Assembly (NCBI GenBank): GCA_020719385.1 | Contig: DYQK01000028.1 | Location: 1 to 32,167, forward strand | Direction: 5' to 3' | Length of the DNA: 32,167 nucleotides | From: Rikenella microfusus | Lineage (GTDB): Bacteria; Bacteroidota; Bacteroidia; Bacteroidales; DYQK01 | Part shown: positions 11,562 through 24,468 of the stretch, piece after piece | Layout of the letters: the number at the start of each line of letters is the position of its first letter | Numbering within the stretch: position 1 is the first letter of the stretch | Notes under the pieces: model-generated | The model's input: the letters and a program-made list of their open reading frames with translations, nothing else | What the model was told of the DNA's origin: nothing | Database searches by the model: none | Position numbers and translations under genes: made by a program

Positions 11562-12191
11562 ATGACCACTTTTTTAATTATTTTGTTTGCGATAACAAAC
11601 ATTTATCTCAGCGTTATTGAACGTTTTCGAAATTATGCAAAAATGATGGCGGTGCAGGGCGTTTTGCTCTTTGGAATTGCCCTGGCAGAGTTGACAAAAA
11701 TTGATTGGTTAAATTTGACATTTGTCGTTAGTGAAACATTGATTTTTAAAGTGATAATTGTGCCGCTTTTGATGTTTAAAATTATCAACAAAACGAAGAT
11801 TTATAAAGTTCATCAACATTCCTTGCCCAGTTTTTACTCGTTGATTTTTACAATTATTGGGCTAATTATCAGTGTTTTATTTACACAAACGCTTAATAAT
11901 AAACACATTGACACGGTTTATTTCACAATTGCACTTTTTACTTTGTATTCGGGAATGTTTATGGTTATCTCGCACCGCAAAATTTTTAGTCATTTAGTTG
12001 GATTCTTAGTAGTTGAAAATGCGGTATTTTTATTATCTTTGGCAGTCGGAAATGAGATGCCAATAATGATTAACTCGGCAATTTTGCTTGATATTTTTGT
12101 TACCGTTTTGATAATTACAATTTTTATTAATAAAATTGGTGACCAGACAGAGAATTTCGAAGTTGACGACTTGACAACGTTAAAACATTAA
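11562..12191 (+). CDS. HyfE-like membrane subunit (hydrogenase-4/NuoK-related)
   Basis: This 209-residue protein has about seven membrane helices. It resembles HyfE, an inner-membrane subunit of hydrogenase-4 and related proton-pumping complexes whose C-terminal part is like NuoK/MrpC. Evidence is the segment GFLVVENAVFLLSLAV (NuoK-like, with a buried Glu), then INSAILLDIFVTVLIITIFINKI, and a short acidic tail ending DDLTTLKH, as in HyfE proteins. E. coli HyfE is of similar size (216). No other hyf genes are adjacent; the only other candidate is the HyfI/NuoB-like gene at 23002. It is probably co-transcribed with the cupin gene just upstream. Family assignment is good; the complex's reaction is unknown. 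Confidence 0.78.
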   Translation: MTTFLIILFAITNIYLSVIERFRNYAKMMAVQGVLLFGIALAELTKIDWLNLTFVVSETLIFKVIIVPLLMFKIINKTKIYKVHQHSLPSFYSLIFTIIGLIISVLFTQTLNNKHIDTVYFTIALFTLYSGMFMVISHRKIFSHLVGFLVVENAVFLLSLAVGNEMPIMINSAILLDIFVTVLIITIFINKIGDQTENFEVDDLTTLKH

Positions 12192-17669: not shown

Positions 17670-18050
17670 AAAAATTTACTCTTTAATTAAATTTTTGGGA
17701 TTGTTGTTTAAATATAGGTTTGCAATTATTAACCAAATATTATGGATAATTTTGTAAAAAATTAAAGACAAAACAAGAATTTTCCCTAATTTATTACATT
17801 TAAACTCTATTTTTTGTTAAAATCTGATAAATTAAGTTAAAATTTGTGAAATATTTTAATTGAATTTCCCTTTTTTCAGGGTCACGAATGATAATTATTG
17901 ATGTACCTACATTTAAACAACAATCCCTTTTATTTTTTTTACAAAATTACAATTTTTTTGAAAAAAATAAACTTTCTCAAAAATTTTTCGCAAAATTATA
18001 AAAAATATTTTTACTTTTGCGGAATAAAATTAAATTTTTTGAAAAATTTT
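17670..18050. other. 381-bp divergent intergenic region
   Basis: This spacer lies between the divergent binding-lipoprotein and GT-C/TPR genes. It is very A/T-rich apart from a short stretch near 17866-17910. I see no convincing protein or RNA gene. One -7 box for the rightward gene is at 18012. No exact -7 box for the leftward gene was found. An 11-bp word (TACATTTAAAC) occurs at 17795 and 17908, which could be chance. Confidence 0.5.
18012..18019 (+). promoter_or_regulatory. Promoter -7 box for the first GT-C/TPR gene
   Basis: TACTTTTG matches TAnnTTTG and ends 31 bp before the ATG at 18051. It lies inside the longer open frame that begins at 17898, which supports the downstream start. Confidence 0.5.
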
Positions 18051-20144
18051 ATGAACAAAAAAACGCAAAAAAAACCTCAAAATTCTGTTTCGCAAACGCA
18101 AAAAACAGAAAAACAAAATTCTTTGCTGGTTTTTAAAACCGTTTCGCAAAAAACTTTTTTGATTCTGCTCGGAATTATCGCAATGATAACGTTTTTAACT
18201 TACTCGCCAACGTTTCAAAATGCAGCAACAAATTGGGATGACGATGCTTATGTTACCTCTGGACATTTTAAAAATTTATCAAGCAAAACACTTCACGACA
18301 TTTTTTTCGGAACAAATAAATTTTATATGGGAAATTATCACCCATTGACGATGACCTCGCTCGCACTAAATTATCAAATGACAGGAATACAGCCTTTCTC
18401 TTATCAACTGACAAATATTTTACTTCACATTTTAACGACTCTCTTCGTTTTGTGGTTTGTTTATTTATTAATCAAAGATATTGAAATTGCGTTTATTGCC
18501 TCGCTATTATTTGGGATAAATGCGATTCACGTTGAGTCTGTCTCGTGGCTCTCGGAGAGAAAAGATGTTTTGTATTCGGCTTTTTTCGTTGCGGCGTTGG
18601 TTGCTTATGTGAAATATCTCGATACTGAAAAAATAAAATTTTATCTCATCGGAATATTTCTGTTTTTTCTGTCGCTTCTCTCGAAGGGACAAGCCGTTTC
18701 GCTTGCGGTAACATTAATTGCTGTTGATTTTGTGCGAGAAAGAAATTTATTGTCGAAAAAAGTGATTTTCGAAAAAATTCCGTTTTTTCTTTTGGCAATA
18801 TTATTCGGACTAATTGCCGTCAAGGCACAAGGCGAGGCAGTGCAGGATATTACTGATTATGAAATGTATAAACGCGTTGCGTTTGCCTCGTATAGTTTTG
18901 TTCAATATTTGGTGAAAACAACAATTCCTTATCCGTTGTGTGCGATGTATCCGTACCCCGACATTATCACGCGTTCGGTGCCGCCGCATTATTGGCTGTT
19001 TGTTATTCCTACGATTCTCATTGGTTTTCTTGCAATTTTATCTGTGAAAAAGAAATGGAATTTTCTTGCTTTTGGAATTTGGTTTTACATTTTCAATATT
19101 GCGTTACTTTTGCAATTTATTCCTGTCGGAGGTGCCATTTTGTCAGACCGTTATGCGTATATTCCCTCTATTGGTTGGTGTTTTTTGGCAGGTTTTCTCT
19201 ATAAATTTTTAATTTCGAAATTTTCAACAACTTACGTACAAATTGCGTTTAGTTTATACGCCATTTTGTTGATTCTTTTAACGTTAAACAGAATTCCTGT
19301 TTGGAAAGACAGTTTAAGTTTGTGGAATGACGTTTTGGAAAAAGAACCCAGAGCGAGCGTTGCATGGAATAATCGCGGAAGTACAAAAAATAGACTTGCC
19401 GATTCTCTTGCGAAAAAAGGTTTTTTCGACGAATCAAAAAAACTTCGCATCGAAGCAGTTTATGATTTCGACAAAGCAATGGAAACAAAACCTGATTATC
19501 ACGAGGCGGCTTATAATCGCGGTATTTTGAAAAAAGAATTAAAAGATTTTAACGGTGCTTTGCAAGATTTCGAGTTGGCAATTTTGTTTAAACCTCAATT
19601 TGCTGACGCATATTTGAATCGCGGAACGATAAAAGATGAATTGGGAAAATTTAAGGAAGCAATAGAAGATTTTAACAAAGCATACGAGTTGAATCCGAAT
19701 TTAGAATCGATTTTTGTGAATCGCGGCGTTTCGAAAGGAAAAATGGGAAAATACAAAGAAGCAATTGAGGACTTAAATACCGCAATTGAAAAATCACCCA
19801 ATAATCCGACTGCTTACTCCAATCGCGGAATGGCAAAAAACGGTCTCGGAGATAAAAAAGGTGCTTTTCAGGATTATTCCAAAGCAATAGAACTCGACCC
19901 AACATTCGCAACCGCCTATTTCAACCGCGGAATTATTCATCAACAACTGGAGAATTTCAAAGGTGCAGTGCAAGATTTCTCAAAAGTCATCGATTTAAGA
20001 GCAACTTATCTCGAAGCATATTATTTTCGTGCAATGGCTTTTGTCAAACTCGGCGACAAGGAAAATGCGTGCAAAGATTTGCAAACGGCGTACAAATCCG
20101 GCGTGAAATACGCACTCAAAGATATTCAAACTTATTGCAAATAA
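18051..20144 (+). CDS. GT-C-like membrane protein with C-terminal TPR repeats (paralog 1)
   Basis: This 697-residue protein has a polytopic membrane half and a TPR half, like TMTC/DUF1736-type proteins, some of which are O-mannosyltransferases. TM1 (about 36-54) is followed by the acidic motif NWDDD (61-65), typical of GT-C glycosyltransferases. Next come GNYHPLTMTSLALNY and HVESVSWLSERKDVLYS, diagnostic of this group. From about residue 430 there are about seven TPRs with the recurring NRG at helix A. Donor and acceptor are unknown; polyprenyl-linked sugar transfer outside the membrane is the usual role. The ATG at 18051 is chosen since upstream codons are A/T-rich, poor in protein-like sequence and contain the promoter. 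A close paralog follows 12 bp later. Confidence 0.88.
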   Translation: MNKKTQKKPQNSVSQTQKTEKQNSLLVFKTVSQKTFLILLGIIAMITFLTYSPTFQNAATNWDDDAYVTSGHFKNLSSKTLHDIFFGTNKFYMGNYHPLTMTSLALNYQMTGIQPFSYQLTNILLHILTTLFVLWFVYLLIKDIEIAFIASLLFGINAIHVESVSWLSERKDVLYSAFFVAALVAYVKYLDTEKIKFYLIGIFLFFLSLLSKGQAVSLAVTLIAVDFVRERNLLSKKVIFEKIPFFLLAILFGLIAVKAQGEAVQDITDYEMYKRVAFASYSFVQYLVKTTIPYPLCAMYPYPDIITRSVPPHYWLFVIPTILIGFLAILSVKKKWNFLAFGIWFYIFNIALLLQFIPVGGAILSDRYAYIPSIGWCFLAGFLYKFLISKFSTTYVQIAFSLYAILLILLTLNRIPVWKDSLSLWNDVLEKEPRASVAWNNRGSTKNRLADSLAKKGFFDESKKLRIEAVYDFDKAMETKPDYHEAAYNRGILKKELKDFNGALQDFELAILFKPQFADAYLNRGTIKDELGKFKEAIEDFNKAYELNPNLESIFVNRGVSKGKMGKYKEAIEDLNTAIEKSPNNPTAYSNRGMAKNGLGDKKGAFQDYSKAIELDPTFATAYFNRGIIHQQLENFKGAVQDFSKVIDLRATYLEAYYFRAMAFVKLGDKENACKDLQTAYKSGVKYALKDIQTYCK

Positions 20145-20156
20145 ACTTTTTTTCGT

Positions 20157-22040
20157 ATGAAAACAAAAAATATTTCGCAAAAAAACGAAGTTTTGCAAAA
20201 AATTTTTTCGCAGAAATATATTTTTTTGATTTTGGGAATAATTTTGTCTGCCATAACTTTTCTGACCTTTTCTCAAATGTTTCAAAACGAATTGACTAAT
20301 TGGGACGATGATATTTATATCGAAAAATTGCCGTTTAAAAAAGTTTCAACAGAGAATGTTGTTGAGATGTTTGCGGGAAAAGATAAATTTTACAACGGAA
20401 ATTATCACCCTTTAACGATGTTGTCGTACTCTGTCAATTTTCAGCAGACAGGAATAAAGCCGTTTTCGTATCATTTAACGAATCTTTTGCTGCACGTTTT
20501 TACTACGTTGTTGGTTTTTTGGTTCGTTTATTTGCTTGTCAAAAGTATTGAGATTTCGTTTATTGCGTCTCTGTTTTTTGGGATAAATACGTTGCACGTT
20601 GAGTCTGTTGTGTGGCTTTCTGAGCGAAAAGATGTTTTATATTCGTTTTTTTTCGTTTTGTCTCTGATTTTTTACCTCAAATATATAGATACAAAAAAAT
20701 TTACTCTATATATAATTGCGTTTTTTCTGTTTCTATTATCTCTTTTTTCGAAAGGACAAGCCGTTTCGCTTTCGTTGAGTTTAATTGTTATTGATTATTT
20801 TCGCGAAAGAAAATTGTTTTCTTTAAGAATAATTCTCGAAAAAATTCCGTTTTTCATTTTGTCGTTGATTTTTGGACTAATTGCCGTTGTAGCACAGGGC
20901 GGCGGTCTCGGCGATATTGTCGAAACGAAAATTTATCAACGAATTATTTTTGCGTTGTATAGTTTTTCGCAATATTTAGTGAAGTTAACGTTTCCTTTCT
21001 CTTTGAGTGTGATAAATCCTTATCCCGATGTAACGAAAATTTTACCTTTCAATTATTGGTTTTTGTCAATAATCTCAATTTTCATCATCATAATTACGTT
21101 TTTTGCGATAAGAAAAAAGTTTTCAACCTTAGTTTTTGGGATTTTATTTTATTTTGTGAACATAATTTTCTTATTACAATTGATTCCTGTCGGTGATTCG
21201 ATTTATTCAGACCGATATTCGTACATTCCTTCCATTGCTTGGTGTTTTTTAATTGGAATTTTATATAAATTTTTGATTACAAAATTCGAAAAGTTAAAAA
21301 ATTTAGTGAGAATTGCGTTTTTTTTATACGCAATAATGTTTATTTCGCTAACTATCGACAGAATTTCTGTTTGGAAAAATAGTTTAACGCTTTGGAATGA
21401 TGTTATCGCAAAAGAACCTACGGCTTTGACTGCGTATGATGCGCGTGGTTCATTGAAAAATTCTCAAAATGATTTGCTCGGTGCGTTAAAAGATTACGAA
21501 TTTTTGATTTTTTACAATTCCGAATTTGCAGAACTGTATAAAAAAAGAGAAATACCGACAAAAAATTATGCGAAATTGCTTTCTCGCCGTCCACTTTTGG
21601 AAAAAGCCTTAGGCAATGTTGGAGTAATAAAAGGGAAACAGGGCAATTTGAAAGATGCAATTTATCATTTTAACGTTGCGATTCAACAGAATCCAGAGAG
21701 TGTGTTGGGTTTTTCGAATCGCGGAATGGCAAATTTTCAACTTGGCAACTACGAAGAAGCAATAAAAGATTTTAACATGGCAATTTCGTTGTCGTATTTA
21801 AGTATTGAGGCATATTATAATCGAGGTTTAATTTTCGCTCGGCAAAATAAATTTGTCGAAGCAGAATCAGATTTTTCGCAAGTTATTTCGCTTTCTCCAT
21901 ATTTTGCTGAGGCATATCGTTCAAGAGGGTTGGTTCGAATGAAGTTAAATCGCAAAAAAGAAGGCTGCGAAGATTTACAAAACGCATATCAACTGGGAAT
22001 AAGAGACGCAATGAAAGATATTTTAACTTTTTGCAAATAA
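20157..22040 (+). CDS. GT-C-like membrane protein with C-terminal TPR repeats (paralog 2)
   Basis: This 627-residue tandem paralog of the preceding gene has the same membrane half: TM1 about 21-40, NWDDD at 48-52, GNYHPLTMLSYSVNF, then HVESVVWLSERKDVLYS and LFSKGQAVSL. Its TPR half is shorter, with about four to five recognisable repeats and an irregular stretch (EIPTKNYAKLLSRRPLLE) where repeats of the first copy would be. Both copies end in a similar DI-x-x-(Y/F)CK tail, so the duplication covered the whole gene. A 12-bp gap suggests co-transcription. Different TPR sets may give different protein partners or acceptors. Function as for paralog 1, inferred. Confidence 0.88.
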   Translation: MKTKNISQKNEVLQKIFSQKYIFLILGIILSAITFLTFSQMFQNELTNWDDDIYIEKLPFKKVSTENVVEMFAGKDKFYNGNYHPLTMLSYSVNFQQTGIKPFSYHLTNLLLHVFTTLLVFWFVYLLVKSIEISFIASLFFGINTLHVESVVWLSERKDVLYSFFFVLSLIFYLKYIDTKKFTLYIIAFFLFLLSLFSKGQAVSLSLSLIVIDYFRERKLFSLRIILEKIPFFILSLIFGLIAVVAQGGGLGDIVETKIYQRIIFALYSFSQYLVKLTFPFSLSVINPYPDVTKILPFNYWFLSIISIFIIIITFFAIRKKFSTLVFGILFYFVNIIFLLQLIPVGDSIYSDRYSYIPSIAWCFLIGILYKFLITKFEKLKNLVRIAFFLYAIMFISLTIDRISVWKNSLTLWNDVIAKEPTALTAYDARGSLKNSQNDLLGALKDYEFLIFYNSEFAELYKKREIPTKNYAKLLSRRPLLEKALGNVGVIKGKQGNLKDAIYHFNVAIQQNPESVLGFSNRGMANFQLGNYEEAIKDFNMAISLSYLSIEAYYNRGLIFARQNKFVEAESDFSQVISLSPYFAEAYRSRGLVRMKLNRKKEGCEDLQNAYQLGIRDAMKDILTFCK

Positions 22041-22045
22041 AAAAG

Positions 22046-22077
22046 TTTGCTTTTTCTCGAAAAAAATATTAACTTTG
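22046..22077 (+). promoter_or_regulatory. Promoter of the Rpn-type nuclease gene
   Basis: TTTG (22046-22049), a 20-bp spacer and TAACTTTG (22070-22077) match the consensus well. The TTG at 22075 inside the -7 box is in frame with the gene but cannot be its start if this promoter is used. Confidence 0.7.
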
Positions 22078-22104
22078 CCGCAAAATTTTAAAACCATTTT
22101 TCTT

Positions 22105-22992
22105 ATGCGTTTAATTCGTTTTGATTGGGCAATGAAAACGATTTTGCGAGACAAGGCAAACTTCGATATTCTCGAAGGATTTCTCTCCGCACTTCTAAAC
22201 GATGACGAGATAAAAATTCTCTCGATTCTCGAAAGCGAAGGGAATCAAATCTTAGAGACAGATAAGTTTAACCGCGTCGATTTGTTAGTGCAAGACAGTT
22301 TGAATCGCAAAATTATTATTGAGATACAAAACTCACGCGAGACAGATTATTTGAAGCGAATTTTGTACGGAACTTCGAAAATTATTGTCGAAAATCAAAA
22401 ACTCGGCGATAGTTTTGTGAACGTTGCGAAGGTTATCTCGATAAGTATTTTGTATTTTAACCTTGGTTATGGAAATGATTATTTGTATTCGGGGACAACA
22501 GAGTTTCGTGGAATGAATTTGGATGAAAAATTAGTGATTCGCGAGCGTGTCAAGTCTGATGAGGATTCTGACCGCAAGTTTAAACTTGTCGAGACAAATA
22601 TTTTTCCCGAATATTATTTGATAAATGTTGAGCGTTACAAAAATATTGTGAGCAAACACATTGACGAGTGGATTTATTTGATGAAAAATAATGAGGTTTT
22701 AGAGAATTTTTCGTCGAAAAACATAAACAAAGCACGGCAAAAGTTAGCGGTTTTGAATATGTCGGATGAGGAGCGCAAGATTTATGAGCGTTACGTTACA
22801 GACGAGGTTATTGACAAGGCACAGATATTAGCGATAAAAGAAGTGGCAGAGATTTTTAATGAGGGGAAAAACGAGGGGAAAATCGAAGGGAAAATCGAAA
22901 CGGCTCAGAATCTGAAGAAGTTAAATGTTCCTGTTTCGACTATTTCTGAGGCAACAGGACTCTCGCAAGAGGAAATCGAAAAAATTATTTAA
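22105..22992 (+). CDS. Rpn-family PD-(D/E)XK nuclease
   Basis: This 295-residue protein belongs to the Rpn (recombination-promoting nuclease) or 'PD-(D/E)XK nuclease family transposase' group. RpnA-type proteins cut DNA and promote RecA-independent recombination; they are not classical transposases. The core is FNRVDLLVQD (Asp59) and KIIIEIQN (Glu73, Gln75), a D...ExQ form of the active site, followed by DYLKRILYGTSKII and KVISISILYFNLG. The C terminus has an EGK-rich linker made of 12-bp DNA repeats, then a short helix-turn-helix-like end (VSTISEATGLSQEEIEKII). The start is the ATG at 22105 because the upstream TTG is inside the -7 box. The HyfI-like gene begins 9 bp after it. Confidence 0.88.
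   Translation: MRLIRFDWAMKTILRDKANFDILEGFLSALLNDDEIKILSILESEGNQILETDKFNRVDLLVQDSLNRKIIIEIQNSRETDYLKRILYGTSKIIVENQKLGDSFVNVAKVISISILYFNLGYGNDYLYSGTTEFRGMNLDEKLVIRERVKSDEDSDRKFKLVETNIFPEYYLINVERYKNIVSKHIDEWIYLMKNNEVLENFSSKNINKARQKLAVLNMSDEERKIYERYVTDEVIDKAQILAIKEVAEIFNEGKNEGKIEGKIETAQNLKKLNVPVSTISEATGLSQEEIEKII
22861..22896 (+). repeat. Three 12-bp tandem repeats in the Rpn-type gene
   Basis: Units GAGGGGAAAAAC, GAGGGGAAAATC and GAAGGGAAAATC follow each other directly and encode EGKN, EGKI, EGKI. In-frame repeats of this linker are common in Rpn-type genes and can change copy number by slippage. Confidence 0.85.
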
Positions 22993-23001
22993 AAAAATTT
23001 T

Positions 23002-23763
23002 ATGTTTATCAAAGAAGTTGATGTTTTGCGACATCACGGTTGGCAATTTGTTCCTGATGTTACAAAAGTTTCGTTGACGCCGTTATTTCGTGGGCGTCCT
23101 GAAATTAAAAAAGGAGTAACAACCGAGGAAGGAAAAATGTTGGAGAAACTTTGTCCCACACACGCAATTACTTCGTTGCCTTTAACCATTGATTTGGGAA
23201 AATGTGTGTTTTGCAAAGAATGTCATTTTGCTTTGCCCGGCAAGATTCGATTCACAAACGATTACAAAATTGCCACTAACGACAGAAATAAATTAATCAT
23301 TCGCGAAGGGTTAAACGAGGAAATTACTTTTTCGTATGAAAATATTCGTCACGAAGTGAGAAATTTGTTTAAACATTCGTTAAAATTGCGTCAAGTCTCT
23401 GCCGCAGGCGACAACAGCTGCGAGATGGAGTTAAATGCTGCTGCGAATGTCAATTTTGATATGGGCAGATTTGGCTTCGACTGGGTTGCCTCGCCACGTC
23501 ACGCCGATGGAATTGTTATCACAGGACCAATATCGGAAAATATGGCTGAAGCATTGCAAATTTGTTATGACGCAACGCCTGACCCCAAAATTGTTGTGTT
23601 AGTCGGCACTGACGCAATTAGCGGCGGAATCTTCGAAAACAGCAACGCACTCAACAGAACTTTTCTAGACAAAATAAAAGTTGATTTATACGTTCCAGGA
23701 AATCCGACACACCCTTTAACTTTTATCAACGGACTTTTAACTTTAACAGGAAAAAATTTGTAA
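23002..23763 (+). CDS. NuoB/HyfI-like subunit with N-terminal ferredoxin remnant, most N2-cluster ligands lost
   Basis: This 253-residue protein joins a ferredoxin-like N-terminal part and a NuoB/HyfI (20-kDa subunit) domain, as in hydrogenase-4-like or related complexes. The N-terminal part has Cys51 (CPTHAI) and C68-x-x-C71-x-x-C74. This is just the set expected for one [4Fe-4S] cluster, since in two-cluster ferredoxins the fourth ligand comes from the other motif. The NuoB-like part is clear (SPRHADGIVITGP, LVGTDAISGGIF, DLYVPGNPTHP). But the usual four cluster ligands are largely gone: position 137 is Asp, Cys140 remains, Cys is Asp203 in GTD, and PGC is PGN (Asn234). Reading frame and length look intact. 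Its complex partners are not adjacent, apart from a HyfE-like gene 11 kb away. Confidence 0.82.
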   Translation: MFIKEVDVLRHHGWQFVPDVTKVSLTPLFRGRPEIKKGVTTEEGKMLEKLCPTHAITSLPLTIDLGKCVFCKECHFALPGKIRFTNDYKIATNDRNKLIIREGLNEEITFSYENIRHEVRNLFKHSLKLRQVSAAGDNSCEMELNAAANVNFDMGRFGFDWVASPRHADGIVITGPISENMAEALQICYDATPDPKIVVLVGTDAISGGIFENSNALNRTFLDKIKVDLYVPGNPTHPLTFINGLLTLTGKNL

Positions 23764-23788
23764 TTTTCGAGAAAAAAGTGTAAATTTG
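23757..23788 (+). promoter_or_regulatory. Promoter of the coiled-coil nuclease gene (and probably argS-mutS)
   Basis: TTTG (23757-23760, overlapping the end of the HyfI-like gene), a 20-bp spacer and TAAATTTG (23781-23788) fit the consensus. The GTG at 23788 lies at the end of the box, so the ATG at 23809 is the likely start. Confidence 0.7.
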
Positions 23789-23808
23789 TGTTTCAAATTT
23801 TTAATGTT

Positions 23809-24468
23809 ATGGAACAATTAACTTATGAATCGGTGTTGAACTTAATTTATCAACAATCAACCATTTTTTCTGCTCAATTAGCAGCACAAAGCAAAGACTT
23901 TTCTGCTCAATTAGCAGCACAAAGCAGAGACTTTTCTGCAAAAATGGAGGAAATGAGAAATTCTCATATTCAATTGGAAAAGTCTCTCGTTCAATTGGAA
24001 AAAAGAGTTTCACAGACAAATAAAACTGTGGCAGATTTTACCAATTCCTACGGCGAAGCAGTTGAGGAATCGGTGAGAATGCACGCAAAAAATTTGTTTC
24101 GCAAACGCGGAATTATTTTAAACGAAACTTTACCAAGAATCGTTAAAGAAGACAATGCTGACAGAAAATTGTACGAAATTGATTTGTTATTAGTCAACAC
24201 AACTTGTGCTGTTGTCGTCGAAGTTAAACATAAATTTAAACCCGATGATGTTGATAATCACTTACTTCGTCTCGAAAAAATAAAAAAAAATCCTATTTCT
24301 TCGGTGAAGGGGAAAATTTTGTACGGAGCAATCTCTGCTACAATTATTCACTCTGAAGTCGAAAAAATGGCAATGAAAAACGGTCTTTTTGTGATAAAAC
24401 ATCATCATAAACATCTTTCAATAGTAAATTCGCTTAATTTTAAACCCAAAGAATGGACAATTTTTTAA
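23809..24468 (+). CDS. Coiled-coil protein with a PD-(D/E)XK nuclease-like domain (DUF3782-like)
   Basis: This 219-residue protein has an N-terminal coiled coil (about 15-85) built partly from 11-residue repeats (FSAQLAAQSKD / FSAQLAAQSRD). A C-terminal PD-(D/E)XK-like domain follows. The active-site pattern is YEIDLLLVN (Asp125) then CAVVVEVKHK with Glu138 and Lys140, preceded by the helix RMHAKNLFRKRG. Similar proteins of unknown role (DUF3782-like) are common in Bacteroidota and cyanobacteria. Metal-dependent nuclease activity is inferred from residues only. The gene has its own promoter, and argS starts 12 bp after it. Confidence 0.8.
   Translation: MEQLTYESVLNLIYQQSTIFSAQLAAQSKDFSAQLAAQSRDFSAKMEEMRNSHIQLEKSLVQLEKRVSQTNKTVADFTNSYGEAVEESVRMHAKNLFRKRGIILNETLPRIVKEDNADRKLYEIDLLLVNTTCAVVVEVKHKFKPDDVDNHLLRLEKIKKNPISSVKGKILYGAISATIIHSEVEKMAMKNGLFVIKHHHKHLSIVNSLNFKPKEWTIF
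23866..23931 (+). repeat. Two 33-bp direct repeats in the coiled-coil nuclease gene
   Basis: Copies 23866-23898 and 23899-23931 differ at a single base and each encodes 11 residues (FSAQLAAQS then K/R and D). Eleven residues is a known coiled-coil period (hendecad). A partial third unit follows. Confidence 0.9.

Follow-up and report, generated by a model that had tools for sequence, protein, structure and literature searches.

The gene studied here encodes the small subunit of a complex that, from its sequence, is an Ehr-type complex of Bacteroidota, consisting of two antiporter-like subunits, one HyfC/NuoH-like and one HyfE-like subunit, a large subunit that is a NuoC+NuoD-like fusion, and a HycF+HycG fusion. 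Three of the four cysteine ligands of its N2 cluster are replaced by Asp, Asp and Asn. Members sharing these replacements are referred to as N2-minus, and those with all four cysteines as N2-plus. The subunit set, the ligand states, the separate losses of the N2 and N6a-type clusters and the conservation of the substitutions are directly supported by the data. As to function, we give an even chance to the reading that an ion-translocating complex has been retained without electron flow through N2, with a non-redox plug or relay at the former cluster site and the remaining cluster as a sensor.

The small subunit and its cluster ligands

The window analysed is a stretch of 32,167 nucleotides of Rikenella microfusus DNA (contig DYQK01000028.1). 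The position and extent that the first-pass annotation had assigned to the small-subunit gene were correct (Table 1). Pfam detected an Oxidored_q6 domain at residues 138-247 of the protein (E 2e-21), and NCBIfam models of the NuoI/HycF type gave weak matches at the N terminus; in a relative, P0002, HycF/NuoI-type models matched this part more strongly. The NCBIfam NuoB models stayed below their curated cut-offs (NF005012, 91.6 against 116 bits; TIGR01957, 85 against 142.7), and the best solved relatives found by phmmer were MbhJ (6cfw_J) and HycG (7z0s_G). An AlphaFold2 model with 31 family members as input reached a pLDDT of 88.6 and a pTM of 0.87, with HycG as the top Foldseek match, which is consistent with the earlier view that the fold is retained. 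Genes of the N2-minus clade run the risk of being misread as hydrogenase-4 or NADH dehydrogenase subunits. A search of viral contigs yielded no relatives of the small subunit.

Table 1. Features of the Ehr-type complex encoded in the window
Feature	Position	Strand	Remarks
HyfE-like membrane subunit	11562..12191	+	NCBIfam PRK11492 (hydrogenase 4 membrane subunit), E 5.5e-12, below curated cut-off
Ehr-type complex small subunit	23002..23763	+	253 aa; N-terminal ferredoxin-like (HycF/NuoI) domain fused to NuoB/HycG-like domain
C51, Cys 4 of dicluster ferredoxin motif	23152..23154	+	invariant in 109 rows and in fused relatives with N2
C68, C71, C74 (Cys 5-7); Cys 8 position (78) is Leu	23203..23223	+	three Cys invariant in 109 rows
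D137, first N2-cluster Cys position	23410..23412	+	Asp in 109/109 of N2-minus clade; Cys in 53/53 N2-plus relatives
C140, sole Cys left at N2 positions	23419..23421	+	Cys in 86/109; otherwise A, N, G, V, D or T
D204, third N2-cluster Cys position	23611..23613	+	Asp in 106/109, Glu in 2, His in 1; Cys in N2-plus relatives
N234, fourth N2-cluster Cys position	23701..23703	+	Asn in 107/109; Cys in 53/53 N2-plus relatives

In the phmmer alignments to MbhJ and HycG, the four cysteine positions of the proximal cluster fall on D137, C140, D204 and N234. The three replaced ligands recognised at first reading are thus borne out, except that the residue called Asp203 is D204 (G202-T203-D204); the other numbers were right, and C140 is indeed the only cysteine left. 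The tandem cysteine pair of the NuoB N2 site corresponds to S139-C140, and neither the four-cysteine site of NuoB nor the four-cysteine proximal [4Fe-4S] site of group 4 [NiFe] hydrogenases is present. The three-cysteine open coordination of MBS/Mbx is absent as well, C140 being the lone cysteine at the four positions and itself missing from 23 of the 109 aligned small subunits (median pairwise identity 60%).

Where C140 is replaced, the position scatters over many residues, indicating that this cysteine is dispensable. Positions 137, 204 and 234, on the other hand, are nearly fixed as Asp/Asp/Asn, with GAT and GAC as well as AAT and AAC all used across the relatives; near-fixation with synonymous codon change marks them as being under purifying selection. 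The first-pass annotation had held that the gene had not simply decayed and that the ligands of the terminal cluster had been lost selectively. The contrast between the fixed residues and the scattered positions 140 and 78 agrees with both claims, and the conserved substitutions in relatives that it had named as a check are carried by more than 100 of them. The N2-minus type was present in 26 of 99 same-order genomes, the genome of the window included, mostly as full-length genes of 54-66% identity, and a scan of the genome collection added 80 loci, mostly from Bacteroidota. Some members depart from the usual form. L085 has D137, D140, H204 and F234 in place of the D, C, D, N set, the copy at L028 (genome G012) is divergent and contains an in-frame stop, and in G053 the gene is divided between two contigs. 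L039 and L044 (labelled Delongbacteria or unclassified) have two N2-minus small-subunit genes each, about 7 kb apart, in what appear to be neighbouring operons.

The N-terminal domain retains four cysteines (Table 1), which can be placed on the full dicluster motif of P0002, C-x3-C-x2-C-x3-CP followed by C-x2-C-x2-C-x3-CP. In two-cluster ferredoxins the ligands are swapped such that cysteines 4, 5, 6 and 7 make up one full [4Fe-4S] site. Since C51, C68, C71 and C74 are these four, one complete site only is predicted to remain, presumably corresponding to N6b of complex I, the cluster adjoining N2. The position of the lost eighth cysteine (78) is taken by F, L, K, A and others across the 109 rows, and the N6b-type cysteines are retained in all complete fused members, both N2-plus and N2-minus. 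The original proposal of one complete site from these cysteines therefore holds, with the restriction that "exactly one cluster" describes the end state only.

Large subunit, membrane arm and gene organization

The closest match of the large subunit is HycE of formate hydrogenlyase (E 1.4e-31). Its L1 CxxC motif reads A-G-D-T, and of the L2 CxxC motif the last cysteine alone is kept, in 79 of 97 members. Three of the four NiFe cysteine positions are thus lost and the two CxxC motifs are gone, as is typical of Ehr; whether the NiFe ligands had also disappeared was a question raised by the first-pass annotation, and the answer is yes. A hidden hydrogenase was ruled out on the same grounds. At the aligned NuoD positions that we take to be the quinone-site His and Tyr, the large subunit has Ile156 and Gly206. 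With neither NiFe ligands nor the quinone His and Tyr, ordinary hydrogen or quinone chemistry at the N2 site would be very unlikely, in line with what had been suggested.

Other parts are strictly kept, namely the large-subunit motifs GDxxxxH, EGWRGE, KDPSxHNW and a C-terminal NKSFxLSYxGxDL. These motifs are largely common to members with and without N2, hence their function should need no N2. In the membrane arm, charged ion-path residues, among them E140, K219 and K250 of the HyfB-like subunit and E124, E183, D190 and E197 of the HyfC-like subunit, are invariant.

In most relatives the genes are arranged in the order HyfB-like antiporter, HyfC-like, HyfE-like, HyfF-like antiporter, NuoC+NuoD-like large subunit and, last, the small subunit, with no formate dehydrogenase or HycB gene within this conserved operon. 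In the genome of the window (3.66 Mb, 98% complete) all six genes are intact and spread over five contigs. The HyfE-like gene lies about 11 kb from the small-subunit gene and shows the key charged residues in an alignment that includes 64 HyfE-like genes from conserved operons; the large subunit is encoded on contig C32, the HyfB-like on C95, the HyfF-like on C247 and the HyfC-like on C152. Each of the scattered genes sits inside its contig among unrelated genes. The small-subunit gene as an orphan was thus ruled out. An adjacent large-subunit gene is also absent from six other N2-minus loci (L050, L054, L068, L098, L109 and L110).

No other Oxidored_q6 protein and no other NADHdh protein were found in this genome, hence it has no NuoB or NuoH of complex I; it has one NQR2/RnfD-type gene. 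A dependence of the N2-minus complex on complex I was rejected, its occurrence among the same-order genomes showing no association with that of other NuoB-type proteins (14/26 against 37/73, p 0.82). One relative, G365, carries a separate Mbh-like operon (L150) with intact NiFe and N2 cysteines.

Directly 5' of the small-subunit gene, at 22075-22992, lies a gene for an Rpn-family recombination-promoting nuclease or PD-(D/E)XK transposase-like protein, which may be relevant to the break-up of the operon. On the other side, an ORF of 226 aa (23788-24468) has no Pfam match and combines a coiled-coil-like N terminus with a nuclease-like "VVVEVKHK" stretch. Further upstream, 17898-22040 encodes two adjacent large membrane proteins, clearly related to each other, with C-terminal TPR repeats.

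History of the cluster losses

A phylum-wide search and one within the class to which G199 belongs turned up relatives that have this operon and retain the four N2 cysteines. Close homologs of this kind had been named beforehand as what would speak against the proposal. They do exist (G199 and G678), but they represent the ancestral state, and the substitutions are no artefact. The two sequences make up the whole of the nearest N2-plus group, and both ferredoxin motifs are present in them too. On a tree calculated with the ligand columns left out, the N2 state changes once. The N2-minus members together with G199 and G678 received an SH-aLRT value of 96 and the N2-minus clade alone 73; owing to the latter value, one loss is the most economical interpretation and not a proven one. 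N2 was thus probably lost in one derived event, in which three cysteines gave way to a fixed Asp/Asp/Asn set.

The motifs show that the loss of the distal N6a-type cluster was a separate one. The first ferredoxin motif is kept in three N2-minus Cytophagales (L081, L085 and L094) and is missing from several N2-plus lineages, hence N6a and N2 were lost independently.

When N2-minus members were compared with all N2-plus members, the small subunit showed exactly three fixed differences, at positions 137, 204 and 234. The large subunit showed six, two of which are new cysteines, C256 (94 of 97 N2-minus members) and C452 (91 of 97). Q280, W282, K289 and R293, in the part that aligns with the segment of Nqo4 facing N2, were considered as compensating changes and dismissed: the all-cysteine sisters G199 and G678 have them too, and they are thus older than the loss of N2.

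Proposed mechanism and related systems

Ehr complexes are defined by group 4 hydrogenase architecture, including antiporter-like subunits, and a large subunit that lacks the Ni/Fe-binding residues, and redox-driven charge translocation is suspected, not proven, for them (PMC6349859); those of CPR bacteria are likewise without NiFe ligands (PMC7304191). The complex described here agrees with this in the homology of its subunits to those of group 4 hydrogenases, in its antiporter-like subunits and in the missing Ni/Fe ligands of its large subunit, and by this definition would belong with the Ehr group (PMC6349859). It differs in the Asp/Asp/Asn replacement of the N2 ligands, in the fusion of the ferredoxin subunit to the small subunit and in its single cluster. 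Among solved structures, the large, small, HyfB-like and HyfC-like subunits are closest to formate hydrogenlyase/hydrogenase-4 (HycE, HycG, HycF, HycC and HycD; 7z0s), but here NiFe and N2 ligands are missing, HycF and HycG are fused, and there is no formate dehydrogenase or HycB. MBS, the sulfane-sulfur reductase, is likewise related to complex I and has no NiFe cysteines left; its remodelled proximal site keeps three cysteines and a cluster that is thought to be catalytic (PMC7684303), whereas the N2-minus subunits are left with one non-essential cysteine. Respiratory complex I (NuoB, NuoCD, NuoH and NuoL/M/N) has homologous folds and subunits; it differs in having N2 ligands and the quinone His and Tyr, and no other NuoB-type protein accompanies the complex in the genome of the window. 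In the literature covered, which included few subscription papers, searches on Bacteroidota Ehr, N2 loss and SulP linkage yielded nothing about the N2-minus clade, and we found no Ehr or complex I relative whose proximal-cluster ligands had been lost altogether and no case that combines such a loss with a one-cluster fusion.

In the preferred reading, ions would still move through the intact membrane arm, while no electrons would reach protons or quinone by way of N2. Coupling or gating would fall to the peripheral arm, Asp/Asp/Asn might act as a polar plug or a proton relay at the former cluster site, where the folded protein probably holds no cluster, and the remaining N6b-type cluster might be structural or sense the redox state. 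This reading is favoured by the ligand states and the selection on them, the intact fold, the six-gene operon, the integrity of all six genes, the missing NiFe and quinone residues, the invariant membrane charges, the single change of N2 state on the tree and the large-subunit motifs that N2-plus and N2-minus members have in common. The Mrp antiporters, whose antiporter-like subunits are homologous and keep the Glu and Lys, offer an analogy for how ions could be transported without redox chemistry; Mrp has no peripheral arm, however, whereas the large and small subunits are conserved here. In complex I, N2 is regarded as the cluster where electron transfer and proton pumping are coupled. A clade that keeps the pump but has exchanged precisely the ligands of N2, beside sisters with the full chain, is thus a natural test of whether the coupling machinery works without N2 electron flow, and it bears on the interconversion of redox pumps and non-redox antiporters such as Mrp.

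Two observations argue against this reading: no loss of the N6b-type site is seen, a pattern that a functional entry point for electrons would explain no less than a structural role, and the two cysteines gained in the large subunit could constitute a replacement redox site. Both lead to the possible, though doubtful, explanation that the complex still works as a redox pump but has changed its electron acceptor. Ferredoxin would pass electrons through the N6b-type cluster to a mononuclear metal or small molecule at D137/D204/N234 in the vacated N2 pocket, or to the large-subunit thiols C256, C452 and C503, and this step would be coupled to the pumping of ions. Asp/Asp/Asn is a plausible set of O/N ligands and is fixed, the deviating set of L085 could be read in the same way, and C256 and C452 appear together with the loss of N2; remodelling of a proximal cluster site for new chemistry has a precedent in MBS (PMC7684303). 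The new cysteines, however, are not universal, C256 being absent from three N2-minus members and C452 from six. An exchange of N2 for an O/N-ligated centre at D137, D204 and N234 together with C256 and C452, by which a complex I-type ion pump would run on thiol/disulfide or mononuclear-metal chemistry instead of electron flow through a terminal cluster, or transport would be gated by redox state, seems to us unlikely. We know of no complex I relative that works as a redox pump with a changed acceptor. Clusters of the [4Fe-4S] type with one Asp ligand exist, and C140 is kept in most members, but a conventional cluster held at N2 by C140 and Asp/Asn ligands, and with it an ordinary Ehr redox complex, is highly improbable, because it would need residues other than Cys at three of its four ligand positions, and C140 disappears in the 23 exceptions with no other change. 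Finally, the missing ligands, the missing ferredoxin cluster and the broken operon might be taken for a decaying remnant or a sequencing artefact. To this we attach almost no weight: error and decay were ruled out by the orthologues, over 100 in number, in which the substitutions are fixed although their codons vary synonymously, the six subunits are intact, and elsewhere the operon is conserved.

Neighbouring genes may hint at a further function. A SulP permease gene occupies three operon positions depending on the lineage, being found 3' of the small subunit, between the large and small subunits, or 5' of a regulator gene. This regulator, which combines HTH_17 and PTS_EIIA_2, lies directly 5' of the HyfB-like gene and is the usual first gene of N2-plus operons, opening about 20 of them; it was not found at N2-minus loci. 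The recurrence of SulP at three places suggests a link between the Ehr operon and anion uptake, and we take SulP as a lead that stands outside the proposed mechanism. Just as DabA is served by DabB-type antiporter-like subunits, the complex could energise or regulate bicarbonate or sulfate uptake via the permease. The varied positions, including one 3' of the small subunit in the N2-minus member L085, and the regulator at the start of N2-plus operons favour such a module. Nevertheless, we think it rather improbable, as no SulP was found in the genome of the window, most N2-minus loci have none nearby, and the two tend to exclude each other among same-order genomes (SulP in 1 of 26 with the N2-minus complex and in 36 of 73 without, p 1.3e-5, uncorrected for phylogeny). 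The same absence and anti-correlation led us to reject SulP as an obligatory partner. Operons that start with the regulator include L204, L205, L207, L215, L216 and L218, and SulP lies in or beside the Ehr operon at L085, L154, L156, L200, L204, L206, L208, L211, L214, L215 and L221. The SulP protein of L154 carries a C-terminal PTS_EIIA_2 domain.
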